Shown here: piece after piece, positions 3,552-49,563 of the stretch | Layout of the letters: each line of letters begins with the position of its first letter | Position numbering within the stretch: the stretch's first letter is position 1 | Source of the DNA: Rhodothermales bacterium | GTDB taxonomy: Bacteria > Bacteroidota > Rhodothermia > Rhodothermales > Bin80 | NCBI GenBank assembly: GCA_958296045.1 | Contig: CATQHT010000003.1 | Span: 1,065,246 to 1,129,245 of the forward strand | DNA length: 64,000 nucleotides | Reading direction: 5' to 3' | The notes under the pieces: model-generated | The model's database searches: none | What the model was told of the DNA's origin: nothing | What the model saw: the letters and a program-made list of their open reading frames with translations, nothing else | Program-made: the position numbers and the translations under genes

Positions 3552-3910
3552 CTAGCTACTATGGTCACATCTGACTCCTCTCCATCGTACATCCTCCGAT
3601 TAGCATTTAGCCTACGCTTTGGCGACCCTCCCCGAAGGGATGGGTAATGGAGAGACCTCCCAGGTCCCGGCGTAGTACGTACGTGCGTGCCTGGGTTCTT
3701 GGACACCGCGGGACCCTCCTCCGCCTCACCATTAGCGGCAAAGAAGGTGTTGCCTTCGGCCAAATGCAAAGCCTCGGCATCCCGGACGATGAAGTTTTCG
3801 GTGCTCATTAGCCCTGCCCACACGCGCCTCTACCGACGCTTCGCCTGTACCCTCGCGAGTACAGACGCACGGCTCGAGGAGATGTGTAGATGGTTAGTCT
3901 TTCACAACGG

Positions 3911-3923
3911 GGGACTTGCACCC
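3911..3923. repeat. Target-site duplication of the IS4-type element, left copy
   Basis: GGGACTTGCACCC here is repeated exactly at 5419-5431 on the other side of the element. The 13-bp length suits the IS4 family. Confidence 0.88.
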
Positions 3924-5418
3924 ATAAGCGTTAACTTGTTAATGTCAATGTGATCCTGTATGTTGCCAGCGTCTACACTGAGATATGGCCACCAAGGGGG
4001 ATCATGCTGAGAACTGTAGACCGTTGCGGGCAACGACGACCAGGAATGTCCAGAAGCATGGCGTACCTTCGGCCGCGAAGTGGAGAGCGCACTGTCACCT
4101 CATCGTTGGTCGGGAGAATAGATGAAGTGGACCGTATCAATGGCAGCGGATGACAAGGAGTGGGGCCTGCTGGTGTCGTTCCTGCCTGCGAATTGGCAAG
4201 AACTAGCCGCCTCTACCGGCGCATTACGCGGCCTGCGTAAGGACAAGTCACCGGAAAGGCTCCTTCGGACATTGCTGATTCACTTGGGGTGCGGACACTC
4301 GTTGCGGGAGTCAGTCGCGCGGGCTCGTCAGGCTCAACTGGCCAACTTATCTGCAGTAGCGCTGCTCAAACGATTGCGTAAGTCACGAGACTGGCTCTAT
4401 GCTATGTGCATGGAGCTGTTTCACGAGCATGGAATTGAAGTGTCCACAGGCGGCGGATTTCAAATGCGGGCATTTGACGCCACTGTTGTGAGTGAGCCTG
4501 GTCGCACTGGCTCAACATGGCGGCTGCATTACAGTGTTACTCTGCCATCACTGGGCTGCGATTTCTTTAAATTAACTGGAACGAAGGGAGCTGGCACGGG
4601 GGAATCGTTCAAGCAATTTCCAATCCGGGCAGGTGATTACATACTGGCTGGCCGCTGGTACGCTACCGGTGCGGGCATTGAGCATGTGACCACAGCGGGC
4701 GGCTACGTAACGGTGCGCGTCAATACCGGTGCACTGCGCTTTCAGAAAGCTTCCGGTCAGCCCTTTGACCTGCTGTCATCGGTAGAAACGCTGCAGCAGG
4801 CTGGGGCTGTAGGAGTCTGGGCCGCAGCCGTTAAAGCAGAAACGCCAGTGGTGGGACGCATTTGTGCACTACGAAAGACGGAGGAAGCAATCGAAGATGC
4901 ACACAAAAAGATCCACAGGACCGCACAGCGTAAAGGAAAGACGCCTCGCAGAAAGACCTTGCGGTACGCGCGCTACGTCATCTTGTTCACCACCTTCCCC
5001 GAGGACAAGTATACCGTAAAAGAGGTGCTTGAGTGGTACCGGCTACGCTGGCAGGTTGAATTGGTGTTCAAGCGCTTCAAATCGCTAGCACAACTGGGTC
5101 ATTTGCCCAAATCCGACGATAACAGTGCCAGAGCATGGCTCTACGGGAAGCTGCTAGTAGCCCTGCTCACCGAAAAGATCGTCCGTCATGCGCGGACTCT
5201 TTCCCCCTGGGGCTACGACGCGCAGGCGTACGAGCAGTACATGGAGGGACTTCAAGTTCGCGCTTAACCAAGTTAAGCGGACGATTGAGCCCGAGTGCTC
5301 ATTATCTGAAATGATTCAACACTGACCTACTATTTCTGGGCAGTTGGCGGCACCTCCGAGAGTTAGAGTCAACCAAGTGGAACGCTATTTCCCAAGCTTT
5401 TTACAAGTTAACTCTTAT
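3924..5418 (+). mobile_element. IS4-type insertion sequence
   Basis: The 1495-bp element has 16-bp inverted repeats with one mismatch: ATAAGCGTTAACTTGT at 3924-3939 and its inverted form (ATAAGAGTTAACTTGT) ending at 5418. A 13-bp direct repeat flanks it, so insertion into intron A is recent enough for the target duplication to remain perfect. It carries one transposase gene on the plus strand. Confidence 0.9.
4122..5267 (+). CDS. IS4-family transposase with substituted second catalytic Asp
   Basis: This is a 381-residue IS4-type DDE transposase. The first Asp is in RAFDATVVSEPG (about residue 122). The family signature Y-x2-R-x3-E-x6-K is present as YRLRWQVELVFKRFK near residue 306, supplying the Glu. 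The second catalytic position, normally in a (G/A)DRGYA-type block, reads LAGRWYATG near residue 182, so Asp is replaced by Gly and the following Gly by Trp. I infer the enzyme is inactive unless another Asp takes over. The start at 4122 is the first ATG; a shorter start at MAADDKEW (4140) is possible. Confidence 0.85.
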   Translation: MKWTVSMAADDKEWGLLVSFLPANWQELAASTGALRGLRKDKSPERLLRTLLIHLGCGHSLRESVARARQAQLANLSAVALLKRLRKSRDWLYAMCMELFHEHGIEVSTGGGFQMRAFDATVVSEPGRTGSTWRLHYSVTLPSLGCDFFKLTGTKGAGTGESFKQFPIRAGDYILAGRWYATGAGIEHVTTAGGYVTVRVNTGALRFQKASGQPFDLLSSVETLQQAGAVGVWAAAVKAETPVVGRICALRKTEEAIEDAHKKIHRTAQRKGKTPRRKTLRYARYVILFTTFPEDKYTVKEVLEWYRLRWQVELVFKRFKSLAQLGHLPKSDDNSARAWLYGKLLVALLTEKIVRHARTLSPWGYDAQAYEQYMEGLQVRA

Positions 5419-5464: not shown

Positions 5465-5847
5465 CTGACTTCTCTCCACCGTACATCCTCCGATCAGCAT
5501 TTAGCCTACGCTTTGGCGACCCTCCCCGAAGGGATGGGTGATGGAGAGACCTCCCAGGTCCCGATGCAGTACGTACGTGCGTGCCTGGGTTCTTGGACAC
5601 CGCGAGACCCTCCTCCGCCTCACCATTAACGGCGAAGAAGGTGTTGCCTTCGACCACGAAGAAACCCTCGGCGTCCCGGACGATGACATTTTCGGTGCTC
5701 ATTAGCCCTGCCCACCCGCACCTCTACCGACGCTTCGCCTGCACCCTCGCGGGTACCAACGCACGGCTCGAGGAGATGCGTGGATGGTTAGTCCTTCACA
5801 TCGGGAGACTTTCACTCCCTGTACTGGCACCAGTTAGCCTGGCGCAC
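5465..5847 (-). mobile_element. Group II intron B, 5' fragment
   Basis: The minus strand starts at 5847 with GTGCGCCAGGC and is highly similar, over about 380 nt, to intron A (3923-3565), including the GACCTGGGAGGTCTCTCC and GGTCGCCAAAGCG stretches seen upstream of ORFs in bacterial group II introns. It ends at a GTCAGATG-like point where intron A begins (5460). It therefore lacks domains V and VI here and cannot splice by itself. Its 5' junction falls inside a DUF4062/AlbA_2 pseudogene. Confidence 0.7.
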
Positions 5848-7300: not shown

Positions 7301-9064
7301 TTAGCCCAGCTTCTGCTTGAGTTGCCCAACCAAACGGTTCCTTCTCGCCTCGTAAAACTCGATAAAGTCAGCCATTCTTGAAGGTACAGAACCCAGAAGG
7401 TGTTTCTCTATGTGATGGCTCTGATCATCAAACTCTTCAGCTAACCATTCGGCTGGCATGGTTGCACCCTTGCTTTTGTTCATCGCCGCGGACAGGAGCT
7501 GGAGATTGCCGAGCCGGTTCACTCGGTCTCTGAAGTCATAAATCTTATCCTCGGGAATCCCTGCATCCCGCAGCTTAGCCGTCGTAAATCTGGTAGCGGG
7601 GAAGATGTGGTCTACCTCTAACGGTACGTCTGGATTGACGTCTGGAAAGATCAGCGACAGAAGCGCAAAGGCTCGACCCTTCTTCGACTCCGTATCTGCG
7701 AGCTCTTCTATCTCTTCCTCGGCGAACGTAAGGCCCCCCATTTTCTCCCCAAGCTCAGCAGCAGGAAAGCCCTGGCTCGTGGAACTGCGGATTACCTTCC
7801 GCAGCGCCTGTAGCAGTGAATCGACGCTGCGCCAGACTCCGCTCTTTATGAGGCTACGAATCAGCCAACCGCGAATCGCCTTCCGGTCGGCCCTATACCT
7901 TGAGCTGCCAAGAAAATCCTTGCCATGCTCCTCCCGATGCAGGTAGTAGGCGATGGGTAATACAGCGCTATTGGCCGTTAGTCTGTCCCCATCAAAGCCG
8001 AATCCTGCAATCAGTTCGACAGTTAAGTAAAGTGTGGACTTGACAGATGACCACTCGCGTTCGAGCACCGCCATATTCTCGCGGTTGAAATTGTCGACCT
8101 TGAACTTCACACTTGCGATGTCGCTCAGCATCAGGCCCGCCCTGAGTATCAGGTCCTTAGAGAAGTCAAAACCCGGTACAATTCTGTTAAGATCGTCTAC
8201 AAGATTGAGAATTGCGGCTCGAGCGTCAAGGTGTTTCCACTGTGCTACCGCTATCGACAGAAGAAGGTCGGAATGAGACAGCTTCGTGCCGCCATCATTC
8301 ATGCGGATAAAGATCTGAACGACCTTATCCAAGCTCTGCTCATCCACCACGTAATACGACATCGGAGTCTCTTGCCGAACCCTTCGATACAACGTGTCAA
8401 GCGTGTAGTAGGCATTCTCAAGCCAATGCTGTTCAAGGTGCTCGGTCAGCCATTTGAGCATTGGTGGTCCACCGTCCATGCCGAGAATGTCGCTGACCCG
8501 AAACCAGCACTGAGCAGTGCCAGCAGCATCCTCGACAAACCCTTCACGATCGTTCTCGCGTCGGAAACTGAACCGATAGGCTGCACCCTCGTCTGCGTCT
8601 TTGCGGGGAGCACCCTCGTCTGCGTCTTTGCGGGAACCGCTCAGAAGATCCAAGAATAGATGCCGCTTCGGATAGGCATCCGCGCTTTTCCGCCACTTGT
8701 ATTTCAGTTTCACCGCGAGGCTCCCCCGGAGGCCAACGTTGAAGGCAGTCAAGCGCTGTTGGCCGTCGAGCACCAACGTGAGCCGCCTATCGCGGATTTC
8801 CCCAAGCCCGGGGCAATGCGGGTTGTCGCGCTCATGGTATTCACGTACGAACCCGAAGTAGCGAAACTTACCGCAGTTTTTTCGGGCTACATCCCAGTAA
8901 AGGAAAGTCCCGAACGGAAATCCCTGCATCAAGCTGTCGAACAACCTGCAGATCTGGTCGGGCTTCCAGACAAACTCCCTCTGTATCGCGGGGAGCACGA
9001 GGTCGTTTCGATGGATCTCGTCCAGGGTCCTCTCAATGGTCTTGCCGATCTCGTACTTGGACAT
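7301..9064 (-). CDS. GmrSD-like DUF262/DUF1524 (HNH) protein, putative type IV restriction enzyme
   Basis: This is a protein of about 587 residues from the ATG at 9064; a TTG seven codons upstream is less likely. The N-terminal DUF262 domain shows LPAIQREFVW, LFDSLMQGFPFGTFL and the NTP-binding DGQQRL motif, followed by FIRMNDGGTKLSHSDLLLS. The C-terminus has an HNH-like VDHIFPATRF block and LGNLQLLSAAMNKSKG typical of DUF1524. GmrSD enzymes cleave DNA carrying glucosylated hydroxymethylcytosine using nucleotide hydrolysis; in single-chain homologues both domains are fused as here, and the true target is unknown. A 9-residue duplication (RKDADEGAP/RKDADEGAA) lies in the middle. It stands alone, with no methylase nearby. 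Confidence 0.88.
   Translation of the reverse strand: MSKYEIGKTIERTLDEIHRNDLVLPAIQREFVWKPDQICRLFDSLMQGFPFGTFLYWDVARKNCGKFRYFGFVREYHERDNPHCPGLGEIRDRRLTLVLDGQQRLTAFNVGLRGSLAVKLKYKWRKSADAYPKRHLFLDLLSGSRKDADEGAPRKDADEGAAYRFSFRRENDREGFVEDAAGTAQCWFRVSDILGMDGGPPMLKWLTEHLEQHWLENAYYTLDTLYRRVRQETPMSYYVVDEQSLDKVVQIFIRMNDGGTKLSHSDLLLSIAVAQWKHLDARAAILNLVDDLNRIVPGFDFSKDLILRAGLMLSDIASVKFKVDNFNRENMAVLEREWSSVKSTLYLTVELIAGFGFDGDRLTANSAVLPIAYYLHREEHGKDFLGSSRYRADRKAIRGWLIRSLIKSGVWRSVDSLLQALRKVIRSSTSQGFPAAELGEKMGGLTFAEEEIEELADTESKKGRAFALLSLIFPDVNPDVPLEVDHIFPATRFTTAKLRDAGIPEDKIYDFRDRVNRLGNLQLLSAAMNKSKGATMPAEWLAEEFDDQSHHIEKHLLGSVPSRMADFIEFYEARRNRLVGQLKQKLG
8583..8636. repeat. 27-bp tandem duplication inside the DUF262 gene
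   Basis: GCACCCTCGTCTGCGTCTTT begins at 8583 and again at 8610. The two 27-bp units are nearly identical and add nine residues in frame. Confidence 0.9.
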
Positions 9065-9267
9065 GGTAAGCTGGGCTTTAGTCAATGGGCGACACTTGGC
9101 GTTCCACGGTCGCCTCTTGTAGGGAACGCCCTAAGTATAACAAAGTCCATGGAACAGTCTTCCGTGTGCCCCGCCCAGCACCGGCCCGGCTCCACGGGCC
9201 GCCAGAGGCATGCTGACCAGTACCGCTGCCGACGACGACGGGCCGCCTCGGCCCAATTGGACTCAAG

Positions 9268-16282: not shown

Positions 16283-16660
16283 CGCGGGGTGGAGCAGCTG
16301 GTAGCTCATCGGGCTCAGGTTGCAGCGCAGGGCATGTGATCGGTTCGTTGCTGGTCGCGATAGCAGATTGACGTTCACCACGGCATCTTCTATTTGCCTT
16401 CTATGCTGCATTGGGCTGCGCACCGGGGAGACTCATGCGTGATCACCTGTCAAATTCGGGGAAGCCTCAGGTGGGGTAATCCCGAGCCAAGCCTCGGCGT
16501 GATGCTGGGGAAGGTGTAGAGACTTGACGGCAGGCACCCTAACGGTAAGGCCGAGGGTGAAGAGAAAGTCCAGACCACAAACGGTCGTTGGCCGGCAGCG
16601 GAAGCTGTAGTGGTAAGCATAACCCGAAGGTCGCAGGTTCGAATCCTGCCCCCGCTACCA
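16283..16660 (+). tRNA. Initiator tRNA-Met(CAU), split by a group I intron
   Basis: Exon 1 is 16283-16315 (CGCGGGGTGGAGCAG...TCGGGCT) and exon 2 is 16618-16660 (CATAACCCGAAGG...CCGCTACCA). Joined they give a complete cloverleaf with a CTCATAA anticodon loop, T stem GCAGG/CCTGC around TTCGAAT, and encoded CCA. Initiator hallmarks are visible: three G:C pairs at the base of the anticodon loop (GGG/CCC) and an unpaired 1:72 position (C/T). It lies on the plus strand, divergent from the DUF1015-serA-serC operon. Confidence 0.93.
16316..16617 (+). ncRNA. Group I intron (subgroup IC3-like) in tRNA-fMet
   Basis: The 302-nt intervening sequence has core elements closely resembling those of cyanobacterial tRNA group I introns: AAATTCGGGGAAGCC at 16452 (P/P4), CCCGAGCCAAGCC at 16481 (Q), GGTGTAGAGACTTGACGG at 16513 (R) and GAGAAAGTCC at 16561 (S). 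P7 can pair GACTT (16521-16525) with AAGTC (16566-16570). With the 5' cut after U (16315) and the 3' cut after G (16617) the exons rejoin exactly; CA is ambiguous at the junction. It has no ORF or homing endonuclease. Confidence 0.9.
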
Positions 16661-21451: not shown

Positions 21452-22411
21452 CTACCGCGCGCCAATGAAGACCTCCGCCGGTGTGCGGTAACCCAAGCAC
21501 TTACGTGGACGATCGTTCAGAATCGTCTGTACCCGCATTACCGCTGCCGGCTCAACAGTGCGGAAGTTGGTCGCCTTCGGTAAGTATTGCCGTACCAGGC
21601 CATTGGTGTGCTCGTTCAGGCCACGCTCCCAGGAATGGTACGGCCGCGCAAAGTAGAACGACGCTGAAAGGGCCCGAGCGATTTGCTGGTGATGGGCAAA
21701 TTCCTTCCCGTTGTCCGCCGTGATGGTAAGCACCCGATCCTTCACTGGTTTCAGACACGCTACGATCGCGCGGCGGACACCGATCGCAGCCTTCGAAGAT
21801 ACCAGCGCAAGAAACGTGAATTTCGACGCACGGTCGACCATCGATACCAACGCACCCTGGTGCTTGCCCCCAATGATCGAATCCACCTCCCAATCGCCTA
21901 TACGCGTCTTCCTCTCCACTATGGGATCCCGTTCGCTGATGTCAACACGATTCGGTATCAGGTCGCGCCCGGCACCGCGCTGGCTACGCCTGTTGTAACG
22001 CTTACTGTTACGGCGAAGCAGCTTGTACAACGATCCGCCAGCTACCCTGTTGCTCCAAATGAACCGGTAGATCCATGTGGAGCTCACCGCTAAGACCCCA
22101 TCATGACGAAGCCGACCCGCAATCTGCTCTGGACTCCAGTGCAAGGCAAGCTTCTCGCGCACCATGGCCCACAGCGCTGCGGTCATCTTACGAGGATGCA
22201 ACAACGCTTTCTGGCGCCGCGCACGAGCCAGTCGATCTGCCTGCTTATACCGATAGCCTCTACCTCCACTGTTGCGCCGCACCTCCCGACTGATCGTCGA
22301 TGGCGAACGACCCAACTGCCGCGCTATGCCGCGTATTGAATCCCCCCGCTTCTTCAACGCATGAATCTGACACCTTTCCTCATACGAAAGGTGACGGTAG
22401 CCCTTTGCCAT
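21452..22411 (-). CDS. IS30-family transposase
   Basis: This is a 319-residue transposase from ATG 22411 (MAKGYRHLSYEERCQIHAL). The N-terminal helix-turn-helix reads SIRGIARQLGRSPSTISREVRRN. The DDE catalytic core is intact: IGDWEVDSIIG (Asp), ITADNGKEF (Asp) and NEHTNGLVRQYLPK (Glu), ending in the GYRTPAEVF tail usual for IS30. I could not find convincing terminal inverted repeats on both sides; the right flank meets an ISNCY remnant at 22545. The frame is complete, so the enzyme could be functional. Confidence 0.93.
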   Translation of the reverse strand: MAKGYRHLSYEERCQIHALKKRGDSIRGIARQLGRSPSTISREVRRNSGGRGYRYKQADRLARARRQKALLHPRKMTAALWAMVREKLALHWSPEQIAGRLRHDGVLAVSSTWIYRFIWSNRVAGGSLYKLLRRNSKRYNRRSQRGAGRDLIPNRVDISERDPIVERKTRIGDWEVDSIIGGKHQGALVSMVDRASKFTFLALVSSKAAIGVRRAIVACLKPVKDRVLTITADNGKEFAHHQQIARALSASFYFARPYHSWERGLNEHTNGLVRQYLPKATNFRTVEPAAVMRVQTILNDRPRKCLGYRTPAEVFIGAR

Positions 22412-22544
22412 CTGATACCCTCCAATGATGAATCCACAATACATACCAACAGCCTCTGGACCTTACGGCTCCATAGGGATGTCCACGCGCTCGCCAACCC
22501 ATTGCTCTGCCGAATCAAGTGTTGCACTTCCTTGTTAAATGGGC

Positions 22545-25062: not shown

Positions 25063-26625
25063 ATGCCAAAAAAGAGGGTTGCGATGCGTGTCTTGTGGGA
25101 CGTTCTGCGGTTGTCTGCGGAGTCTGATCTGAGCGTACGTGGTATCGGTCGTGCGCTGGGAATATCGCACAGCACGGTACTTGGTTATTTGCGTCGTGCT
25201 AAGGCAGCGGGTGTGCGTTGGCCTTTGCCCGAGGGTATGACGGAGGCCAAGTTGAAGGCTTTGCTTTATGGTCCGCCGGAGAGTGCCAGAGAGACGCGTC
25301 CGTTACCGGACTGATCCGAGGTGCATCGTAAGATACAGCTCAAGGGGTTCACGCGACACCTGATGTGGGAGCGGTATAGGCGGGACCACAGCGATGGTTA
25401 CGGCTACAGCAAGTTCTGCGCTCTTTACTCTGCCTGGAAGAAGGAATTTGGCCAGGTGACGGTTCCGATGGATCATCCTGCGGGTCATACGGCATTCGTG
25501 GACTATGCAGGCATGCGCCTGGAGGCGATAGACCAGCTTACGCGTAAGCGGCGCCGGGTGGAGATCTTTGTTGGCGTGCTGGGATTCTCCAATTATCTCT
25601 ACGTTAAGGCGACGTGGACGCAGCGTCTTGGGGACTGGCTGGGCTCGCATCGTCGCATGTTCGAGTATTTCGGGGCGGTGCCTTCCTATGTGGTCTGTGA
25701 CAATTTGAAGAGTGGCGTGCGCAAGTCCCACCGGTACGATCCGGAGATCAATCCGTCGTATCAGGACCTTGCGATGCACTACAAGACCGTGGTTGTGCCT
25801 ACGCGTCCCGGGAAACCCAGGGACAAGGCTAAGGTCGAGCAAGCCGTGTTGCATGCAGAGAGGCGCATTCTGGCTCCGTTAAGCGATAAGCGTTTCATCG
25901 GTCTAGCGCACGTGAACCGGCACATTCGTGTCCATCTGAAGGAGCTTAACGAGCGGCCTTTTCAGAAGCTGGAAGGCAGTCGTAAGAGCTGGATTGACAC
26001 GTGGGAGCGATCAGCGATGAAGCCCTTGCCAGCGGAGCCGTACGAGCACGCGGAGTGGCGCAAAGCCAAGGTGCACAGAGATGCGCACATCGAGGTGCGC
26101 TGGCACCGTTATAGCGTTCCTTATCGATATGTAGGTCGTTCGGTACAGGTTCGCCTTACAGATACCACCCTTGAGGTATTTATTGACGACAAACGGGTGG
26201 CGACGCACCCGCGTAGCCACCAGAAAGGGGTCACCACCAAGGATGAACACATGCCGGACTCCCAGCGCCAACTGAAGGATATGAGCCGCTTCGTAACCGA
26301 GGCAGAACGTATCGGGCCGGACATACACAAGGTCGTGCAGCAGATCATCGATGCTGAACGGCACCCGTTGATTCGCTACCGCACGCTCATGGGCCTGCTC
26401 CGCTTGGCTCGCATCTACGGTAAGAGCCGCATGGAAAACGCGTGTACGCGGGCAATCGCTATCGGCACCCGCTCGTACAGGAGCATCGCGTCCATCCTGA
26501 AGAATGGACTCGACAAGCATCCGCTGGACTCGGTGTCTCCGCCTCCCATAGACCATGACAACATCCAGGGCCCAAGCTATTACGACACCAAATCGGATTC
26601 TCCTCACCAAACCTCGAAGGACTGA
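25063..26625 (+). pseudogene. istA: istA transposase with in-frame stop
   Basis: From ATG 25063 the frame runs through an N-terminal helix-turn-helix (LSVRGIGRALGISHSTVLGYLRRA) to a TGA at 25312-25314, then continues in the same frame to 26625. The sequence around the stop (LPD-stop-SEVHRKIQL) would be PDWSEVHR with one base change (TGG to TGA). The second part holds the integrase core: FVDYAGMRLE (Asp), CDNLKSGV (Asp) and GKPRDKAKVEQAV (Glu), then the C-terminal Mu-like barrel. Unless TGA is read through, the protein is split and inactive. Confidence 0.88.
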
Positions 26626-27402
26626 TGCTCCTACACCCTACCCTTGACAAGCTCGAGCAGATGCGTCTGCATGGCATGGCGCGCGCTGCGTGATCAGCTT
26701 ACCCAACCGGAAATGGAGCAGCTCCCGTTCATGGACCGCCTGGGCCTATTGGTTGACCACGAGGAGATCGTGCGATACAACAAGCGCCTGCGGTCGCGCC
26801 TACGCCGCGCCCGGTTACGCCAAGAGGCCTCCATGGCCGATCTGGACTATCGTCGCGGTCGCAATCTGGATCGGCTCCTGATGGCATCGCTTTCCACCTG
26901 CGACTGGGTGCGCAAACATCACAATGTGATCATTACCGGACCCACCGGTGTCGGCAAGAGCTTCGTGGCGTGCGCGCTGGCGCATAAAGCCTGCATGGAG
27001 GGGTTCACCGTACGCTACCACCGACTGCATCGTCTTCTGGAAGATCTGCAACTCGCGCACGGGGACGGACGCTTCCTGAAACTGCTGAAGCAGTTGACGC
27101 GCTTCCACCTCCTGGTTCTCGATGACTGGGGGTTGTCACGAATCAATGCGCTGCACCAGCGGGACCTGCTTGAGCTTATCGATGATCGGTATCAGACAGG
27201 ATCCATCGTCGTTACCAGCCAGATGCCTGTGAGTGTGTGGCACGAAGGCATGGAAGACCCAACACTCGCAGATGCCATCCTGGATCGCCTCATTCACAAT
27301 GCACACCACATCGCGCTGAAGGGAGAGTCCATGAGACAACGTCTGCCACAATGGCAGAACCTTCCAGAGAAGACAAGCGTAACTGAAGCCAGACAGCCGT
27401 GA
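26624..27402 (+). pseudogene. istB: istB helper ATPase with 5' frameshift
   Basis: The natural start ATG at 26624 overlaps the istA stop and reads MLLHPTLDKLEQMRLHGMA, but a two-base loss in the CG run near 26686 shifts the frame to a stop at 26692. The rest (ALRDQLTQPEMEQLPF onward) is open in another frame to 27402. That part has Walker A GPTGVGKSFVACAL, Walker B LLVLDDWG and VVTSQMP (sensor I), typical of the AAA+ transposition helper. A shortened product from 26644 lacking the first helices is possible. Confidence 0.87.
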
Positions 27403-27882: not shown

Positions 27883-29673
27883 TCATGGGTCAGGAGGATT
27901 TTCCAGATCGTACGGCTTATCGGAATATTCCTCCTTGGTTCTTGTCGCAGCGGGATTATAGCTCATGCCCAGACACTGGGTGATCCGCTGCATAAATGGC
28001 GTCAACTTCTGATCCACTCTCAGGACGAGATAACAGTGCCTACTCTTTGGTAACACAGTGGTAATTCGATGAATCTGGTTGAGCCTGAATCGGAGCGTAT
28101 CCCAGCTTTCATCGATGAGGTTGGCCTTGAGTATTGTGCGAATCAAATGGGAGACATGGTAGGCCAGAACGGTAATGAATAGATGCCCTTCAATCCGTTC
28201 ATCGTTGCTGTGATAGATGGGCCGTAACCCGACATCGGACTTTATGACTCGGAACGTGGCCTCAATCTCCGTGAGCCGCCAGTAGGTGCGCGCAATCTTT
28301 TTGGTAGACCAGGTGGTATGGCTGGTGCTCAGCACATACCCTCCGGCGGCCTGGGTGCTTTTCTGGTGGGAGATACGCGCGCTAAACGTGACCGACTCGG
28401 CAAGTTGCGTCCCCTCCTTTTGCTTCACTTCAACCTCATACAGGTGGGCCACCGATCTGTATTTCTCCTGCAGACGACCGACCTTACGTCCCACTTTCTC
28501 GATATTTTTCAGGCGTCTGGGGAGGGGCAGTCCCTCATTCATGTATTCCAGCGCAGTTTCAAACTGATGGCATTGCGTCTGTTGGTCCTGCTCTTCAGTG
28601 GCATTCCGGGCTTCGCTGCGTACATAGACGCGTGACGCTCCCTCCTCTTCGGATAACTTCCAAGCCTGGACTTTCACCTCATTGGCGGTGAGAAACTGGT
28701 GATCTGGTGCCTCGGTAGGCATCAGATGCGCCCTTGTTCGGTCCACACAAATCCAGTAAAGGTTGTTTTCCTTCAAGTACGCCAGACTCGCCTCGGTGGC
28801 TATACCGGCATCCATGAGAACGGTGGGCGTCGCTCCGTTCAGGTTCTCAATGGCCTTTTGGAGCGTAGCCGACTCACTCGCCAGGCCAGGTAGCATCTCC
28901 ACACTGCGCGGAAATCCCGAGCCATCGAGCGTCAGCGCCAGCGTGACCATGGGACAATCGGTCCGCTCTTCCTTGCTGAGCCCACGACGAAGGAGCTCCC
29001 CTATCTGCCAACCATGATAAAACACATTGGTCAGGTCATACAAGGTGTTCGTCTCGTCAATATGCACCAACGTCTTGGTGTTTCTAAAGAGTCGGTTGGT
29101 AATCTCATGCCGGTGCCTATACAACCGGTCTGAGCATCGGTACAGCATGCTCAGACTTGGCGCCTGAATGTTTAGCAACTCCAGGATACTGGAGGCCTGC
29201 GTCATCCACTTATGGGTGTGTCGTTCACTGCCGGGCGAGAGCATGCGTCCGACGATTAGCGCACAGGCGCGTTTGATATGGTTTTCCGAGAAGTTGAGTT
29301 CACGCAAGAGTTCTTCCATGCCCACCAGTTCGAGCGCTTGCAGCGCTAGGCACTCACCTCCGACAGTCTTGGCGTCAGGGTTGTGGACCTTGTCTGTGAG
29401 AATGGTGTCGCGATCATTCGGGTCTTTTACATTGATGTCAAAGCCTTTGTCCAGGAGTCTTTTGACGATATCATCGACCGTGTTCTGAAAGTGTTCATCG
29501 CCTTCCTTGAAGGGGGTGCAGGATTGTCCTTTCAGTCGGGCGACGACCTGTTTAGCGAGTTCGGGCCAGTCGGACTTGGGCATACTGAAATCCCGTCCGA
29601 GGTTGAGTAGGGTACGGTGGGTGGATTGTCCTTCGACGCGTACGGATTGAAGGAGCGCGAATGAGGTTCGCAC
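27883..29673 (-). CDS. IS1634-family transposase
   Basis: This 596-residue transposase reads from a GTG at 29673. Similarity to family N-termini (IFVRASKYRRKNGQ) extends 14 codons upstream to an ATC at 29715, so the original ATG start may have mutated. Later blocks agree with IS1634: TLVHIDETNTLYDLTN with the first Asp, GATPTVLMDAGIATEASL with the second Asp, YWRLTEIEATFRVIKSD with the Glu, and the HLFITVLAYHVSHLI helix. The protein length suits the family. I could not define the terminal repeats. Confidence 0.88.
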   Translation of the reverse strand: MRTSFALLQSVRVEGQSTHRTLLNLGRDFSMPKSDWPELAKQVVARLKGQSCTPFKEGDEHFQNTVDDIVKRLLDKGFDINVKDPNDRDTILTDKVHNPDAKTVGGECLALQALELVGMEELLRELNFSENHIKRACALIVGRMLSPGSERHTHKWMTQASSILELLNIQAPSLSMLYRCSDRLYRHRHEITNRLFRNTKTLVHIDETNTLYDLTNVFYHGWQIGELLRRGLSKEERTDCPMVTLALTLDGSGFPRSVEMLPGLASESATLQKAIENLNGATPTVLMDAGIATEASLAYLKENNLYWICVDRTRAHLMPTEAPDHQFLTANEVKVQAWKLSEEEGASRVYVRSEARNATEEQDQQTQCHQFETALEYMNEGLPLPRRLKNIEKVGRKVGRLQEKYRSVAHLYEVEVKQKEGTQLAESVTFSARISHQKSTQAAGGYVLSTSHTTWSTKKIARTYWRLTEIEATFRVIKSDVGLRPIYHSNDERIEGHLFITVLAYHVSHLIRTILKANLIDESWDTLRFRLNQIHRITTVLPKSRHCYLVLRVDQKLTPFMQRITQCLGMSYNPAATRTKEEYSDKPYDLENPPDP

Positions 29674-38046: not shown

Positions 38047-38895
38047 ATGAGCTTCATGGAGCCCCCACCGACTCGCCGGTTCCGCACCATCTGGATTTCC
38101 GACTTTCATCTTGGGATGAAGGCCTGCAAGGCGGACTATTTGCTCGACTTCCTGCGTCATCACGAGTCGGACATCCTCTATCTCGTCGGAGACATCTTTG
38201 ACGGGTGGGCACTTGCCCGCTCGTGGCACTGGGTCCAGAGCCACAACGATGTCATTCAGAAGCTGCTGCGCAAAGCGCGCAAAGGGACGCATGTCTTTTA
38301 CCTGCCCGGCAACCATGATGAATTCACACGGGACTATCTGGATCTCAACTTCGGGCAGGTGGCAATAAAAGAGATGGTCCTACATGTCACAGCCGACGGC
38401 CGCAAGTTCCTTGTATTGCACGGAGACAATTTTGACGGCATGATTCTCCATGCGAGGTGGCTGTCGGTCCTAGGAGCCAAGATCTACCGAGGGCTGCTTT
38501 CGCTAAACCGGGTAATCAATTTTGTGCGACGCGTGTGCGGGCTACCCTACTGGTCACTGGCAGCCTTCCTGAAGCACAGAACGAAGCGGGCTGTCCAGTT
38601 TATGGCCGACTTTGAGGCGGCTATGGTGCGGCTGGCGCGCTCCAAAGAGGCGGACGGCGTCGTATGCGGCCATATTCATCATGCAGAAGTACGCGAAATT
38701 GACGGCATTGTGTACGCCAATTGCGGGGACTGGGTGGAGAGCTGTACGGCACTGGTGGAGCACTTTGACGGATCGCTGGAGCTGATCCGCTGGGCTAAGC
38801 TTGACCATTTGCCACGGCGAAAGAAATATAGGCGCCGCGGCCAGGAGCCACCCACCGTGTCCACCATTGCTCAGACCATGGATGCAACGGCATGA
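38047..38895 (+). CDS. UDP-2,3-diacylglucosamine diphosphatase-like metallophosphoesterase
   Basis: This protein of about 282 residues starts at ATG 38047. It is a calcineurin-type phosphoesterase with the complete metal-site series SDFHLG, VGDIFDGW, PGNHDE, LHGDNFD and CGHIHHAE. This LpxH-related set occurs in proteins annotated as lipid A precursor pyrophosphatases, acting at the cytosolic face of the inner membrane; a related specificity is possible. The last bases overlap the start of a glycosyltransferase gene, so the two are translationally linked and probably act on the same envelope lipid. Confidence 0.9.
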   Translation: MSFMEPPPTRRFRTIWISDFHLGMKACKADYLLDFLRHHESDILYLVGDIFDGWALARSWHWVQSHNDVIQKLLRKARKGTHVFYLPGNHDEFTRDYLDLNFGQVAIKEMVLHVTADGRKFLVLHGDNFDGMILHARWLSVLGAKIYRGLLSLNRVINFVRRVCGLPYWSLAAFLKHRTKRAVQFMADFEAAMVRLARSKEADGVVCGHIHHAEVREIDGIVYANCGDWVESCTALVEHFDGSLELIRWAKLDHLPRRKKYRRRGQEPPTVSTIAQTMDATA

Positions 38896-40009
38896 AAGGT
38901 ATGCTTTGAATGAATTGAACTGCCTGTTTATTATACAGGGGGAAGGGCGGGGCCATCTGACCCAGGCGATGGCTCTGGAATCCATGCTTTTGCGCGCGGG
39001 GCACCGCGTGTGTAGCGCCGTGGTGAGCAAGGGCGCCACGCATGAAGTGCCGGCATACTTCGAAGAGCATTTCCAGGCGCCGGTCACCTATGTGGAGAGC
39101 GCCCACTTTGTTGTGGATCCTAAAAGCCAACGTATTGACTGGCCCAGGACGCTTGCCGCCAACAGCGCGCGCTGGAATCAGTTTTCGGAGACCTTCACGG
39201 TTATCGGTGCGGAACTCGCGCGGGAAAAGCCGGATGTGGTGATCAACTTCTATGAGCCGCTGGGAGGCCTTTATATGATGCGCCACAATCCGCGTATACC
39301 GATGGTTGCAATAGCGCATCAGTTCATGTTTCTGCACCCCCGGTACATTTTTGCGGAAGGGTTTGCCTTCCAGCGACACTCGGCGATGTTATTCACCCGT
39401 CTTGCCGGATGGGGGGCTACGCGGCGACTGGCGCTTTCACTATATGACGCTAAGCCGTTACCTGCCAAACGGATGGTGGTAACTCCGCCCCTATTGCGAG
39501 ATGAGCTGTTTGCCGTCACGCCCTCGGATGACGATGACTTTTTTCTTGTATACCTGTTCCATCACAGCCTAGCTGGCGCCGTATCAGACTGGCATCGCCG
39601 AAATCCGCATGTACCGATACACTGTTATTGGAACAACCCGGAGGCCGACGAAACCGAGGTGCACGGAAATTCGTTGGTATTTCACCGTCTGCACGGCAGG
39701 CGTTTTCTGGAAATGATGGGTATGTCTAAGGGCGTAGTCACCACAAGCGGCTTTGAAAGCCTGGCAGAGGCCATGTACCTTGGAAAGCCTGCTCTGCTTA
39801 ATCCAGTACGCAACCATTTTGAGCAGTACTGCAATGCCAAGGAGGGTGCTCGGATGGGTGCCGCGGTCTATTCTGATGATTTCAACCTTTCATTGCTGGA
39901 GCGCTTCATCCCCGACTACCGATTTGACGCGAAGCATTACAGGCGTTGGGTACTGCAAGCTGAACATATGTTGGTTCAGCAGGTAGAATCTGTTGTGCTT
40001 GGGCGCTGA
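38882..40009 (+). CDS. GT-B glycosyltransferase, MurG/UGT-like
   Basis: This 375-residue protein runs from ATG 38882, overlapping the phosphoesterase gene by 14 bp. The N-terminus LNCLFIIQGEGRGHLTQAMAL matches the glycine-rich first Rossmann loop of GT28/UGT-type enzymes (GxGRGHLTQ). The C-terminal domain has VVTTSGFESLAEAMYLGKPAL, the usual nucleotide-sugar binding site. The acceptor is unknown; the overlap with an LpxH-like gene suggests a glycolipid of the cell envelope (inference). Confidence 0.88.
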   Translation: MQRHERYALNELNCLFIIQGEGRGHLTQAMALESMLLRAGHRVCSAVVSKGATHEVPAYFEEHFQAPVTYVESAHFVVDPKSQRIDWPRTLAANSARWNQFSETFTVIGAELAREKPDVVINFYEPLGGLYMMRHNPRIPMVAIAHQFMFLHPRYIFAEGFAFQRHSAMLFTRLAGWGATRRLALSLYDAKPLPAKRMVVTPPLLRDELFAVTPSDDDDFFLVYLFHHSLAGAVSDWHRRNPHVPIHCYWNNPEADETEVHGNSLVFHRLHGRRFLEMMGMSKGVVTTSGFESLAEAMYLGKPALLNPVRNHFEQYCNAKEGARMGAAVYSDDFNLSLLERFIPDYRFDAKHYRRWVLQAEHMLVQQVESVVLGR

Positions 40010-40233: not shown

Positions 40234-41229
40234 ATGTCCAATCAACTCGTAAACCTGGAAACTGCGCCTACTTCCAAGGGGAAGAAGGAGAAATGGGGTA
40301 CCCCCATTCAGCTATTCTTGCCCATCCTGCAGGCTCTGCGCGACAGTGAGGTCAAGACGATCCCGCAGCTTGTCACACCTATTCGGGATATGCTCGATCT
40401 GACAGAGCATCAGGTCACCATATATAATGACAAGAACAGGAAGCCAGAAGTGGAGGTTAAGATCAGCACCGCTATGGTACACCTGTGCGGGTCCGGGCTT
40501 GTTATACGGCCACGCAGGGCAGCGGTGCAGATCAGTTCAGAAGGGTTGAATCTGCTGGCAACCAATCCTGAAACGATCAACTACACCACGCTGCGCGAGC
40601 GTACCGGCTACAAGACCGGCAGTACCAAAACAAAGCGGGGGACAGAGGTTAAGGGGAGCGAGGCGGTAAGCGAGGCGATAAGCGAGGCGGTAGCTGTCGC
40701 GCCCGCGCTGCGGACCCGCACCACCAGCGCCTTGGCAGGACCCACGGGTCGCAGCTCCACGATGGAAACCATCGCACGTACCTCTGAGGCGCTTGAGTTT
40801 GCGCTGGTGGTAGAATTGACCGATATGCTTGGGCGTGCCAGTGCTGCCGAACTGCGACGCGGCATATGCAGCGTTCTCGAAAAGCTGGGCTATGGCCAAG
40901 CGCGCGGTGAGGATACCCTGTTGAAAGGTCCGCTGGGACTGATCCGTGCTTGCGTACAGGTCGATACTGACAAACAGCCCGATGTGGACGAGATGCGGGA
41001 ATTTGTGCGTATCATCGATACGCATCGTGCCGATATCGGCATTTATGTTTCAGCCCCGGGCTTCACGGAGGAAGCCCGGGGATACCATATGGCCTCGTCC
41101 ACGCAAATGGTGCTTATGGATTGTCAGAGGCTCGCGCAGCTGATGGTGCAGCATGGGATTGGTATCACGGAGGTTCGGTCCTACGAGGTCCTGAGCCTTG
41201 ATAAATCCAGCTTTTCTATTTCCGACTAA
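40234..41229 (+). CDS. Mrr-like protein 1 (catalytic residues lost)
   Basis: The protein has 331 residues from ATG 40234 (MSNQLVNLETAP); a longer start at 40075 adds 53 unlike residues. An Mrr N-terminal winged-helix domain (about 20-125: QLFLPILQALRD ... LVIRPRRAAVQISSEGLNLLATNPETI) is followed by a linker and an Mrr_cat-like C-terminus (LRRGICSVLEKLGYG ... ADIGIYVSAPGFTEEARGY ... LAQLMVQHGIGITEVRSYEV). The nuclease signature, in active Mrr a GDGG(V/I)DG Asp and a QAK Lys, is replaced by RGEDTLLKGPLG and CVQVDTDKQ. Three 12-bp tandem repeats (SEAV/SEAI/SEAV) sit in the linker. It is the first of three tandem paralogues. Confidence 0.85.
   Translation: MSNQLVNLETAPTSKGKKEKWGTPIQLFLPILQALRDSEVKTIPQLVTPIRDMLDLTEHQVTIYNDKNRKPEVEVKISTAMVHLCGSGLVIRPRRAAVQISSEGLNLLATNPETINYTTLRERTGYKTGSTKTKRGTEVKGSEAVSEAISEAVAVAPALRTRTTSALAGPTGRSSTMETIARTSEALEFALVVELTDMLGRASAAELRRGICSVLEKLGYGQARGEDTLLKGPLGLIRACVQVDTDKQPDVDEMREFVRIIDTHRADIGIYVSAPGFTEEARGYHMASSTQMVLMDCQRLAQLMVQHGIGITEVRSYEVLSLDKSSFSISD
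40657..40692. repeat. Three 12-bp tandem repeats in mrr-like gene 1
   Basis: AGCGAGGCGGTA, AGCGAGGCGATA and AGCGAGGCGGTA follow one another in frame and encode SEAV-SEAI-SEAV in the interdomain linker. Confidence 0.93.
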
Positions 41230-41405
41230 CTTGTGCTCACTCTTTGGCCACGGCCGATCTTGACCGATACAATGGCGGCGGATTGTCACAGCATTACGTC
41301 TTCGCGCAGCACCGGTCTTTGGCCCAGTCTAATGAATAGCAGCGCAATTGCTCGGCTTGCCGAGCAGGTTTTTCTTTCCAGCACGTAAACCAAAATCTGC
41401 TAACT

Positions 41406-42431
41406 ATGGCCTCTCCAGAACCTATGGGATTACCAGTAGCTAGGAAGTTGTACAAGCCGGCGCTGCAGTGCATGGCCGACGGCAAGCATCTTACGCATCC
41501 GCAGCTGACTGATCGGCTTCTTGAGAAGTTTCCTGGCGCGTCATCAGCGCCAGGCAAGAAAAACTACCAGCGGCTTATGGCATGCCTGGGCGAACTGAGA
41601 AAAGCGGTGCTTGTGACAATGGTGGGCCGCGGCGTGAGTGCCATCACCGAACGCGGCAAGCAACTGGTGGAAGAGGATCCGCCCAAAATCACCCCCGCTC
41701 TGCTTAGGCGCTACCCGGAATACGTGGAAGCGGAGGATGAGAAGCGTGCTAAGGATAAGGCGCGGACCAAGCGGTTCAAGGCCGGATCCCCGCCAGTGCA
41801 GGGGCAGAGCCCCGCTGAGACGGCGTCCGATGCCGCGGCTGCGCCTGTGAGCGTGCCCAGCGGCACCGTGCGCGTGCACGCTTTTGGCTCACGGTCTCCT
41901 TCTGTCCCAAACCGGCAGTCCAGGTCGCACCTTGAGCAAAGACTGATGGCCAGCGTTCAGGCCCTCAATGACGAGTTGGAAGCGGCGGTTGAGGAGCTGC
42001 TGAATCAGATGGAAGAGAAAGAGCTTGTGCATGCCGTTCGGAAGCTGCTCTTAAAGATGGGTTACGGTTCGGGCAGCATAGACGAAGAGGTCACCGGGGC
42101 CCTTGCCCGTGGCACCACACTGAAGGATGCTTTGGGGTTCAACCAGGTCTATATCCAGGTGACTTCCGGGCAGAAAGCCCAAGCGATAGACCTGCAGGGA
42201 TTCGTTGGTGCGTTCAGTGCGGCTCATGCAGAGCGTGGCATCTTTGTATCAATCGCCGGATTCACGGGCGAGGCCCGCGGATTTGCTATGGGGATGAGCA
42301 ATAGTATCCAGATTATGGATGTATCAGCCCTGTCACGCCTGTTGGTTACCCATGGTGTGGGCATCAAAGTGCATGCGCGCCATACTGTGAAGCGGGTTGA
42401 TCCTGCCTATTTCGAAAAGCTGCGCGCATAA
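41406..42431 (+). CDS. Mrr-like protein 2 (catalytic residues lost)
   Basis: This 341-residue paralogue has the same two-domain plan. The N-terminal winged helix covers about residues 10-110 (YKPALQCMADGKHLTHPQLTDRLLEKF ... ISAITERGKQL-type end, then LLRRYPEYVE). The C-terminal domain keeps the Mrr shape best: LLKMGYG, KDALGFNQVYIQV, GIFVSIAGFTGEARGFA, VSALSRLLVTHGVGI and RVDPAYFEKL. In active Mrr the motif before DALGL is GDGGVDG and the strand ends VQAKR; here they read GALARGTTL and IQVTSG, so the catalytic Asp and Lys are both missing. It lies 176 bp after paralogue 1. Confidence 0.88.
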   Translation: MASPEPMGLPVARKLYKPALQCMADGKHLTHPQLTDRLLEKFPGASSAPGKKNYQRLMACLGELRKAVLVTMVGRGVSAITERGKQLVEEDPPKITPALLRRYPEYVEAEDEKRAKDKARTKRFKAGSPPVQGQSPAETASDAAAAPVSVPSGTVRVHAFGSRSPSVPNRQSRSHLEQRLMASVQALNDELEAAVEELLNQMEEKELVHAVRKLLLKMGYGSGSIDEEVTGALARGTTLKDALGFNQVYIQVTSGQKAQAIDLQGFVGAFSAAHAERGIFVSIAGFTGEARGFAMGMSNSIQIMDVSALSRLLVTHGVGIKVHARHTVKRVDPAYFEKLRA

Positions 42432-42530
42432 GACTCCTGATGTCTTACCTAACCACAGTGTCGTCCCACACCGAATCACCGCGCCCGAATCTCATTGGAT
42501 CTCATAAATAGCCGGTAGAACGTTCGTCGT

Positions 42531-43616
42531 ATGGCTGCTGCTGGATTACACCATATCATGCTGCCGGTGCTTCAGGCGCTGGGCATGGTAGAGGAAGCAA
42601 GGACGCGCGACATTCCGCGGCTCTTGCCGCGCGCGTCTCTCGGAGGTCGCTCGGGGCGCCCAGACATGAGCAAGGTTACTAAAGCGATGCTGCACCTGCA
42701 AAAGGCCGGTCTGGTGGAAAGAATTCAGCGCGGAGTCCACAAGATTTCGGAACGGGGGCGGGACGTGCTGAAGAGCCCTCCCGCCGCACTGTCACGCCAA
42801 TACTTGCGACGGTATCCAGAGTACCAGACCTATGAGGGACGCGTTGGGGCACGCAAGCCAACGGCACCCTCGTCCATACCCATCCACCAGGAGCATCAAA
42901 AGACGCTATTAACGTTTTCCGACGAACGTACGCCCGCGACTTTGTGGTCGGAGCCGATCGTTGAATCGCCGGTGGTTGAGCACGATGACGACGCGCCCAA
43001 GAAACTGGAGAAGACAAAAATCGTCAAGAGCCCGTATCATGCGGCGCCAGCGGAGCGCAAGTCCCAGTCCGTGCACCGCGTACGGGGTCGTACCCGAGTG
43101 CTCCAGACTAGGATAGCTCGTGCGGTGGAGTCGCTTCATAGCGAACTTGAGTCTCACTTGGTCAAGGAGGTGAGTGCGTTGTCTTCCGAGCAGCTTGTCA
43201 CCTTGGTGATGGAGATTCTCGCTGCATACGGACATGGAGGCCCCAACCCAACCGTCAATAGGAGCGAAGCAGAGGGACTGGGACAGGGCAGCGCTGTTCT
43301 GAAGGATGCACTGGGTGTTAATCGCGTGTATGTGACAGCCACAGCCAATGGTACGGTCAGCGCAAGCGACCTGCAGCAGCTTAAGATCGGTCTTATGACT
43401 ACTCGTGCTCCTGCGGCCGTGCTGATATCCAATGGGGAAGCACCACCAATCGCTATGGGCTTCTCGGCTGGCACGCGTCAGCGTGTATCGGTATTGGATC
43501 TGGAGGAGATCGCGTTCTTGATGATAGAGACCGGCCTAGGTATCACAGAGGACTCCGGCTACGAGATCCGAACCATTGATGAATCGGTGTATGGGCACGC
43601 TTTGCAGCCTGCATAG
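42531..43616 (+). CDS. Mrr-like protein 3 (catalytic residues lost)
   Basis: This 361-residue third paralogue lies 99 bp after number 2. The winged helix runs from about residue 5 to 90 (HHIMLPVLQALGMV ... GLVERIQRGVHKISERGRDVL, then QYLRRYPEYQTY). A long basic linker precedes the Mrr_cat-like end: LVTLVMEILAAYGHGG, VLKDALGVNRVYVTATANG, MGFSAGTRQRVSVLDLEEIAFLMIETGLGI and YEIRTIDESVY. The strand that should carry QAK reads VTATANG, and no GDGGxDG Asp is present. The stop overlaps the start region of the following sulfatase gene. Confidence 0.86.
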   Translation: MAAAGLHHIMLPVLQALGMVEEARTRDIPRLLPRASLGGRSGRPDMSKVTKAMLHLQKAGLVERIQRGVHKISERGRDVLKSPPAALSRQYLRRYPEYQTYEGRVGARKPTAPSSIPIHQEHQKTLLTFSDERTPATLWSEPIVESPVVEHDDDAPKKLEKTKIVKSPYHAAPAERKSQSVHRVRGRTRVLQTRIARAVESLHSELESHLVKEVSALSSEQLVTLVMEILAAYGHGGPNPTVNRSEAEGLGQGSAVLKDALGVNRVYVTATANGTVSASDLQQLKIGLMTTRAPAAVLISNGEAPPIAMGFSAGTRQRVSVLDLEEIAFLMIETGLGITEDSGYEIRTIDESVYGHALQPA

Positions 43617-45063
43617 CGGCGGAACATCGCGCTGGCAGCGCAGCGACTGCCTTACATCTGTCTGGTTTCTACTGCCGGTTCTGGCAGCCTTGACGCTGTG
43701 GTCTTGTACTTCGCCCCGGGCACCTAACGTGGTCATCATCTTTGCGGACGACTTGGGATACGCCGATGTCGGCTCGCACGGTGACCCTCCATTTGCCACG
43801 CCGCATCTGGACCGGTTAGCAGAAGACGGCGCAACGTTTACTTCCTTCTACGTTAGTCAGCCGGTATGCTCCGCGTCCCGCGCGTCACTCTTGACTGGCA
43901 GCTACGCCAATCGGCTTGGCATCCACGGTGCGCTTGGGCCTAGCAGTCGTCACGGAATTCACGACGACGAGGTCACGATCGCAGAGCTGTTCAAATCGCA
44001 GGGTTACGCCACGGCTATCTTCGGTAAGTGGCATCTGGGGCATCATGCACCCTTTTTGCCTGAACGCCACGGGTTTGACCAATTCTATGGCATCCCATAC
44101 TCTAACGATATGTGGCCATTCCACCCAGAGAGCCCGCATGCTTGGGGAGACCTGCCTACGATCGAGGGCGACTCTGTCGTAGGATTCAACACAGACCAGA
44201 CCCGTTTCACGACCGACTTTACCGAGCGGGGTGTGGCATTCATTGAGGCACAGGCTGGGGCGGGCCGGCCGTTCTTCTTGTATCTGCCGCATCCGATGCC
44301 GCATGTACCTCTTTTTGCAGCTAAGGAACGTGCCGACAAGAGCGGAGCCGGCTTGTTCGGCGATGTGATCAGCGAGATTGACTGGTCGGTGGGCAGGATC
44401 ATGGCTGCGCTGCAAGAAGCGGGAGTAGCCGAAGAGACGCTGCTCATCTTCACTTCCGACAACGGGCCCTGGTTAAGCTATGGTAACCATGCCGGGTCCG
44501 CATATCCGCTTCGCGAAGGCAAGGGTACAACCTTCGAAGGGGGTATTCGTGTGCCGTTTCTGGCACGCTGGTCTGGGCACATCCCAGCGGGACTTCGTGT
44601 CGATGCTCCGGCAATGACGATCGACCTATTTCCCACGCTGGCAGGTTTGGTCGGGGCGTCTCTGCCGCCGAACCCTATTGATGGGAAGGACATCTGGCCG
44701 CTGCTTTCGGGCCGTCAGGCCGCCGCTGCACAGGAGGCCTATTACTTCTGGTATCGCCGGAACCATCTGGAAGCTATGCGCAGCGGGCGCTGGAAGCTGC
44801 ACTTTCCGCATCGGTACCGGACGATGCGCGGCCAGGCACTCGGCCATGACGGCATTCCGGGCAAGTATATCCAGGACAGCATTGGCGTTGCGCTCTTTGA
44901 CCTGGAGTCCGATATAAGCGAGTTGCACAACGTCGCGGCAGCCCACCCGGAGGTGGTCGCGCGTTTGGGTACTATGGCGGACTCTATGCGCCATGAGCTG
45001 GGAGATGCGCTCACGGGAATCACGGGCGCTCGGACGCGTGAGCCAGGTCGTCTTGCCCAGTAG
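43591..45063 (+). CDS. Exported sulfatase 1 (lipoprotein signal)
   Basis: The protein has about 490 residues; ATG 43591 is preferred, with ATG 43579 also possible. Both overlap the end of the third mrr-like gene. A signal ending LTLWSC looks like a lipobox. The sulfatase core has VVIIFADDLGYADVGSHG for metal binding, the formylglycine motif CSASR in QPVCSASRASLLTGSY (Cys type, needing an activating enzyme), FGKWHLGHH, and FTSDNGPW. It would remove sulfate esters from extracellular glycans. The motif is CxAxR instead of the common CxPxR, still within the accepted pattern. Confidence 0.92.
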   Translation: MGTLCSLHSGGTSRWQRSDCLTSVWFLLPVLAALTLWSCTSPRAPNVVIIFADDLGYADVGSHGDPPFATPHLDRLAEDGATFTSFYVSQPVCSASRASLLTGSYANRLGIHGALGPSSRHGIHDDEVTIAELFKSQGYATAIFGKWHLGHHAPFLPERHGFDQFYGIPYSNDMWPFHPESPHAWGDLPTIEGDSVVGFNTDQTRFTTDFTERGVAFIEAQAGAGRPFFLYLPHPMPHVPLFAAKERADKSGAGLFGDVISEIDWSVGRIMAALQEAGVAEETLLIFTSDNGPWLSYGNHAGSAYPLREGKGTTFEGGIRVPFLARWSGHIPAGLRVDAPAMTIDLFPTLAGLVGASLPPNPIDGKDIWPLLSGRQAAAAQEAYYFWYRRNHLEAMRSGRWKLHFPHRYRTMRGQALGHDGIPGKYIQDSIGVALFDLESDISELHNVAAAHPEVVARLGTMADSMRHELGDALTGITGARTREPGRLAQ

Positions 45064-49056: not shown

Positions 49057-49563
49057 ATGTACAGCTCGATCACGGTCGCCAATCACTTTCTGCGCAAGGG
49101 CTGGGCGGAACACATCCCCATCACACCGATGAAGATTCTGAAGCTGGTCTACGTCGCACACGGCTGGCATTTGGGTTGGAAGGAAAAACCTTTGATCTAT
49201 GACCCGATCATGGCGTGGCGTTATGGCCCGGTCATCCCGAACCTATATCACGAGGTAAAGGAATACAGAAGCAGAGGCATCACGTCTAAAATTCGGTCAG
49301 CCTTCGAATCGGTCTACAAGCAGCGCCTGGATGACGACACGGCTTCGTTTCTCAACATGATCTGGGAGCACTACAAGAGTTTTACTGCCTTCGAAATGTC
49401 GAGCCTTACGCACCAGAAGGGGTCGCCTTGGGACCGCGTCAGAGAAAAAACCACGAATGCTGCTTTGCGCACCCGCAGCATTGCGATCAGCGACACAATT
49501 ATCAAGGATTACTACGAGAATAAGATCAATAGCGCACTGGACCAGCCGACGAGCGCAAGCTAG
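49057..49563 (+). CDS. Panacea-domain (DUF4065/SocA-like) protein, putative antitoxin
   Basis: This 168-residue cytosolic protein matches the Panacea fold: SSITVANHFLRKG, ITPMKILKLVYVAHGWHLG, the PIMAWRYGPVIPNLYHEVKEY block, FLNMIWEHYKSFTAFEMSSLTHQKGSPWDR. Panacea proteins act as the hyperpromiscuous antitoxin half of PanAT systems and also include the SocA adaptor. The gene is 51 bp upstream of a two-TM protein gene on the same strand, an arrangement expected of a toxin-antitoxin pair. Confidence 0.9.
   Translation: MYSSITVANHFLRKGWAEHIPITPMKILKLVYVAHGWHLGWKEKPLIYDPIMAWRYGPVIPNLYHEVKEYRSRGITSKIRSAFESVYKQRLDDDTASFLNMIWEHYKSFTAFEMSSLTHQKGSPWDRVREKTTNAALRTRSIAISDTIIKDYYENKINSALDQPTSAS

Follow-up and report, generated by a model that had tools for sequence, protein, structure and literature searches.

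Within a 64,000-nucleotide stretch of a Rhodothermales genome (G000; GenBank assembly GCA_958296045.1, contig CATQHT010000003.1), hereafter the window, three co-directional open frames lie in tandem. They encode proteins that we call Mrr1, Mrr2 and Mrr3, after Mrr, which is among the oldest known type IV restriction enzymes:

40234..41229, + strand: Mrr1, 331 aa; Mrr_N winged helix, linker and inert Mrr_cat
41406..42431, + strand: Mrr2, 341 aa; Mrr_N winged helix, linker and inert Mrr_cat
42531..43616, + strand: Mrr3, 361 aa; Mrr_N winged helix, long linker and inert Mrr_cat

The start of Mrr1 was set at MSNQLVN..., in a frame that is already open from 40075. All three are members of the Mrr family by descent, as both domains attest. 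Mrr_cat scores 42.3 bits in Mrr1, 49.9 in Mrr2 and 23.3 in Mrr3, and it exceeds the Pfam cut-off in these three proteins, in their six orthologs and in four proteins of a second array described below. Mrr_N scores 43.7 bits in Mrr1 and 33.1 in Mrr3, the latter also over the cut-off; Mrr2 falls just below (25.6 against 29.5), and its orthologs reach 70-75 bits. These scores, together with the orthologs, rule out chance or mis-annotation as Mrr. The PADLOC profile mREase_IV likewise matches these proteins (best E 2.5e-26), and several members give weak, mostly sub-threshold matches to Pfam NA-iREase1 (PF22722).

Erased catalytic sites in folds under selection

Active relatives in the same phylum carry the core GD(E/G)GIDGIIKEDRLGLDIIYIQAKRW. 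The catalytic Asp (of GDGGxDG) and Lys (of QxK) are gone from Mrr1, Mrr2 and Mrr3, in which the equivalent stretches read GEDTLLKGPLGLIRACVQVDTDKQ, ARGTTLKDALGFNQVYIQVTSG and GSAVLKDALGVNRVYVTATANG, respectively. GD(G/E)G(I/V)DG is absent from all three window proteins, and VQVDTDKQ, IQVTSG and VTATANG occupy the position of (I/V)QAKRW. The initial annotation had described three tandem Mrr-like proteins with the nuclease site erased, and the open reading frames (ORFs), their Pfam matches and the replaced Asp and QxK Lys bear this out. Its three replacement motifs also stand, whereas its list of motifs was overall slightly over-generous: Mrr1 has LKGPLGLIRACV instead of KDALG.N.VY, and Mrr3 has AAVLISNGEAPPIAMG instead of GI(F/Y)VS..GFT.EARG.

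The same residues are missing in 9/9 triplet proteins from three genomes. Across these nine, the aligned Asp column reads R/N/E/E/-/H/G/G/K and the Lys column T/T/L/D/V/T/T/A/A; the former catalytic columns differ freely between orthologs, and the remainder of the dead domain is conserved. The paralogues have no acid or lysine in common on either active-site strand, so we see no intact metal site rebuilt from other residues. Because 59 other non-redundant Mrr ORFs of the sampled relatives retain D..QxK, the loss in the triplet is not chance. Judged from sequence, the triplet fails the catalytic test that defines a type IV restriction endonuclease.

The fold itself is retained. In AlphaFold2 models of Mrr2 and of Mrr1 from a related genome (G012; mean predicted local distance difference test score 76-77, with Mrr2 at 76), the C-terminal domain is arranged helix-hairpin-helix-strand, as in the PD-(D/E)xK core, the N-terminal domain has helices and a two-strand wing, and the linker between them is disordered. 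Foldseek matched the models to the RPB5 N-terminal jaw, MspJI, AspBHI and AF1548 (E about 4e-4 to 3.5e-2; template-modelling (TM) score normalised by target 0.2-0.46 across matches), and sequence profiles found no relative in the Protein Data Bank.

Because synonymous sites are close to saturation, we compared the proportions of nonsynonymous and synonymous differences, as pN/pS. Whole triplet genes have pN/pS of 0.45-0.66, with all bootstrap intervals below 1, and the genes that flank them 0.22-0.42. Within the triplet genes, the winged helix gives 0.47-0.70 and the helix plus dead catalytic domain 0.36-0.60, versus 0.54-1.02 in the linker, where most intervals reach or come near 1 and which serves as a near-neutral reference inside the genes. 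The dead domain is therefore kept, in most comparisons no less strictly than the winged helix, and purifying selection, rather than decay, acts mainly on the folded domains. A basic residue of the wing is conserved in 9/9 triplet proteins (R in eight, K in one).

A fixed triplet and a second inert array

Searching for co-occurring triplets elsewhere turned up two genomes of one sister genus, G012 and the single-contig G013, both with Mrr1-Mrr2-Mrr3 in unchanged order between the same flanking genes: metallophosphoesterase and glycosyltransferase genes on one side and sulfatase, 6-phosphogluconate dehydrogenase and nucleoside hydrolase genes on the other. Mrr1 orthologs lie at L017:6838-7725 and L018:10234-11157, and those of Mrr3 are present in the same two loci. 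The window genes share 33-44% identity with their orthologs (40-44% for Mrr2, which is best conserved in its C-terminal domain), and paralogues share 22-34%. Each paralogue forms a separate clade in the tree, and therefore the duplications are older than the genus split. A partial triplet was never seen in the three carrier genomes, and all nine frames are open.

The features that adjoin or interrupt the triplet in the window are:

38801..40009, + strand: glycosyltransferase (Glyco_trans_1_3), upstream flank, conserved with and without the array
41348..41367, + strand: weak terminator-like hairpin, TTGCTCGGCTTGCCGAGCAG followed by GTTTTTC, between Mrr1 and Mrr2
43576..45063, + strand: sulfatase, downstream flank, its frame overlapping the end of Mrr3

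The sulfatase lies 3-18 bp past Mrr3 in the relatives with the triplet and is directly adjoined by the glycosyltransferase in relatives lacking the triplet, G011 and G014 among them. The hairpin was not seen at the equivalent place in the two relatives with the triplet, and the number of terminator-like sites is not above the shuffle background. GC content at third codon positions in the triplet is near that of neighbouring genes, and the immediate flanks are genes of sugar and central metabolism. No effector, NTPase, methylase or defence gene is among the genes adjoining the array, and no NACHT domain occurs in the proteins or neighbours examined. A mobile or defence-island context is usual for active Mrr, if not strictly defining; the triplet instead occupies a conserved metabolic block, at a fixed place in two genera and empty in others. 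It is chromosomal and vertically inherited at one fixed site.

Two further genera of the same family, represented by G011 and G014, do not carry the triplet and have a different tandem pair of Mrr_N plus Mrr_cat genes at a separate locus that lies upstream of a SusC/SusD pair. When read by eye against active GDGGIDGKG...FQCKRYQG relatives, the Lys is lost in 4/4 pair proteins and the Asp in 3/4. The pair is conserved between the two genera, and its locus is empty in the triplet carrier G012, where an M16 peptidase gene is followed by SusC. A sulfatase as common partner of both arrays was suggestive at first, but we set it aside: the triplet-side sulfatase exists without the triplet, and a sulfatase stands next to the pair in G014 only.

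In a maximum-likelihood tree the triplet is one clade (100/100), in the same half as the phylum's GD(E/G)GIDG...QAKRW Mrr proteins, and the pair groups with active QCKRY-type Mrr in the other half (100/100). A tree constrained to unite triplet and pair in one clade is 85 log units worse (approximately unbiased test, p 1.2e-7), and therefore activity was lost at least twice independently; the pair proteins may themselves fall into more than one clade (90/76). Both array loci are chromosomal, empty in some relatives and set among metabolic genes, not in defence islands. All 13 array frames (nine triplet, four pair) are open at ortholog identities of 29-55%.

A census of the class gave an Mrr_N match in 23 of 245 genomes, with tandem copies only in the five array genomes; G029 has two Mrr_N genes, on separate contigs. 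Of the non-redundant ORFs at the examined loci, 18 are without D..QxK: the 13 proteins of the arrays, and otherwise fragments or proteins of different architecture. Among the sampled relatives, inert full-length Mrr proteins coincide with tandem copies. Profile searches of ~400 genomes of the phylum, in which not every match was fetched, revealed no other array at the loci that were examined. Other Mrr_cat genes are absent from G012, G013 and G011, and G014 has one additional strong one. In G000 itself we found a 211-aa frame (L005) that carries GDGGIDG and scores below the Pfam cut-off; two other Mrr_cat matches there (L004 and L006) are chance ones, in cysteine-desulfurase-like and FabH-like genes.

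A pattern scan found no relative in IMG/VR contigs and, in named genomes, only the two relatives already found and an active-type Mrr in Sciscionella. Phage records gave weak, partial matches only, and plasmid matches share 22-26% identity and carry restriction-endonuclease annotations. Mobile-element or phage cargo was rejected on the IMG/VR scan and the phage matches.

Three unusual genes outside the arrays were also observed. In L097 (G019:C95) an otherwise active-type Mrr is split into frames of 183 and 137 aa (425-973 and 1447-1857), apparently an example of real decay in the order, unlike the arrays. L052 in G010 (1683-2777, - strand) encodes a solitary Mrr_cat-like protein that keeps DGGID and has LVK in place of QxK; with its other N-terminal architecture, it is possibly another partly altered site. 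L208 in G515 (721-2613, reverse-complement strand) has Mrr_N in a 631-aa frame with the P-loop NTPase motif GAPGVGKTF, an unusual combination.

Elsewhere in the window, where no tRNA was found, we observed:

1217-1352, 3694-3918 and 5588-5812, all - strand: group II intron domain matches, one family twice, surrounding a DDE transposase ORF (4122-5267) in the first 6 kb
7304-9085, - strand: GmrSD-like type IV restriction protein (GmrSD_N 95.7 bits), ~31 kb from the triplet
16390-16588, + strand: group I intron match (Rfam RF00028, 64 bits, full model), intergenic, with a DUF1015 gene on one side and a DsbD-like gene on the other
21452-22444, 25321-27402 and 27883-29673: transposase/IS genes (HTH_38/rve, IS21-type transposase with IstB, DDE_Tnp_1), upstream of the metabolic block, none adjoining the triplet
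49057-49563, + strand: Panacea (SocA-like) antitoxin-domain protein

A possible non-cutting role and its rivals

We favor, at a probability of about 0.5, the reading that Mrr has here given rise to a DNA-binding complex that does not cut, is probably hetero-oligomeric and serves regulation or local DNA architecture. Three dead Mrr proteins would have been domesticated as chromosomal, vertically inherited DNA-binding proteins. The winged helix of each would bind DNA, tethered by the poorly conserved linker, and the dead PD-(D/E)xK domain would be kept for binding and assembly instead of cleavage. By analogy with the E. coli Mrr homo-oligomer, an enzyme regulated by its oligomeric state (PMC12707154), the three paralogues would probably act together as a hetero-oligomer, and the resulting DNA clamp would serve regulation or local DNA architecture, not restriction. 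The selected non-nuclease role proposed in the initial annotation is well supported: across three genomes nine dead proteins are intact, their folded domains are the main target of purifying selection, the fold is retained, and a second independent case exists, which suggests that a restriction enzyme was twice converted into a non-cutting DNA-binding tool.

Several points weigh against this reading. No binding site ties the array to a regulated gene, and the three triplet loci have no conserved operator-like intergenic repeat, on which ground a shared operator was rejected. The neighbouring metabolic genes occur without the array and are thus not dedicated partners. The triplet evolves about twice as fast as its neighbours, which would suit a conflict role too. 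The models have low predicted TM scores (0.46-0.47), and carriers are few (three genomes for the triplet, two for the pair), several of the compared genomes being metagenome assemblies.

The strongest rival is a defence sensor without a nuclease of its own, whose winged helices would detect modified or foreign DNA and either trigger a remote effector or block the DNA by binding. Parentage in type IV restriction, seen in the mREase_IV matches, and evolution faster than that of the neighbours fit such a sensor, as do the weak matches to the NACHT-associated inactive REase PF22722 and the proposal that inert domains in conflict systems act as effectors or dominant negatives (PMC7159879). Its context does not fit: the flanks are metabolic, the adjacent genes include none of the expected partners, inheritance is vertical at one fixed site, and viral relatives, by the pattern scan of IMG/VR and the phage records, amount to the weak, partial phage matches. 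We consider a defensive role unlikely and a regulatory or architectural one more likely. Decoys or dominant-negative subunits, aimed at active Mrr-type nucleases or phage anti-restriction proteins, have likewise been proposed for inert conflict proteins (PMC7159879), and an oligomer interface could be common to dead and active subunits. The decoys suggested in the initial annotation are nevertheless not supported, because the triplet genomes G012 and G013, the latter assembled as a single contig, lack any other Mrr_cat gene; the pair carrier G011 lacks one as well, G000 offers only the sub-cut-off frame, and the additional strong gene is confined to G014. Partnership with an active Mrr of the same cell was rejected on the same two of three triplet carriers, and decoys are improbable overall.

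We give similarly little credence to a cryptic enzyme in which a different part of the fold has taken over catalysis, as in tRNA-splicing EndA. Mrr2 does keep an invariant H274/E276/R277 and H323/R325 set, but these residues are not conserved in Mrr1 or Mrr3, and the active-site strands hold no acid or lysine common to the paralogues. Restriction genes decaying as pseudogenes in slow loss would account for fast evolution and few carriers, but the 13/13 open frames at such low ortholog identity, free of frameshifts, and pN/pS below 1 in both folded domains and near 1 in much of the linker rule out such decay for practical purposes, and we assign it a very small probability. The pN/pS comparison gave no sign of relaxation in the folded domains.

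Returning to the DNA-binding complex, we tentatively propose, with somewhat less confidence than for the complex itself, a new class: non-cutting bacterial DNA-binding complexes of two or three diverged dead Mrr subunits, reached twice independently in one family by tandem duplication and active-site loss, for chromosome regulation or architecture. The initial annotation knew of no triple inert Mrr array, and we likewise found no inert tandem Mrr arrays, single or repeated, described in the open-access literature; inert nuclease folds, including inert REase domains, are already known, and the tandem Mrr arrays appear new. With the fold kept and the cutting site erased twice, each time in tandem copies, a non-catalytic role of the Mrr fold becomes directly testable; if true, a defence nuclease would have been converted repeatedly into a chromosomal DNA-binding complex. 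The arrays also carry a warning for annotation, as Pfam and PADLOC call these inert proteins restriction enzymes.

Comparison with known systems

E. coli EcoKMrr (Mrr_N PF14338 plus Mrr_cat PF04471) shares domain order, fold and Pfam assignment with the triplet, which differs in having lost Asp and QxK in every copy, in standing in tandem sets of three and in holding a fixed chromosomal place among metabolic genes. NA-iREase1 is also an inert REase domain, but its NACHT/NTPase association has no counterpart in or beside the Mrr arrays, and Mrr_cat is a far better match.

Other dead PD-(D/E)xK folds offer precedents, by analogy and not as proof. The RPB5 N-terminal domain, one of the top Foldseek matches for both models, is a catalytically inactive PD-(D/E)xK-type fold acting through protein contacts (PMC1185551); it belongs to another protein family with another partner, and the likeness is structural only (TM by target about 0.4). 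RecC re-uses an inactivated C-terminal PD-(D/E)xK domain to hold DNA (PMC1185551) within a helicase-nuclease machine that has an active homologous partner, whereas the triplet is without one in two carriers. TP1 of TTV1, although viral, derived from Cas4 and single-copy, is likewise a PD-(D/E)xK nuclease that has shed its catalytic residues, and it now serves as a DNA-binding structural protein of the nucleocapsid (PMC4625639).
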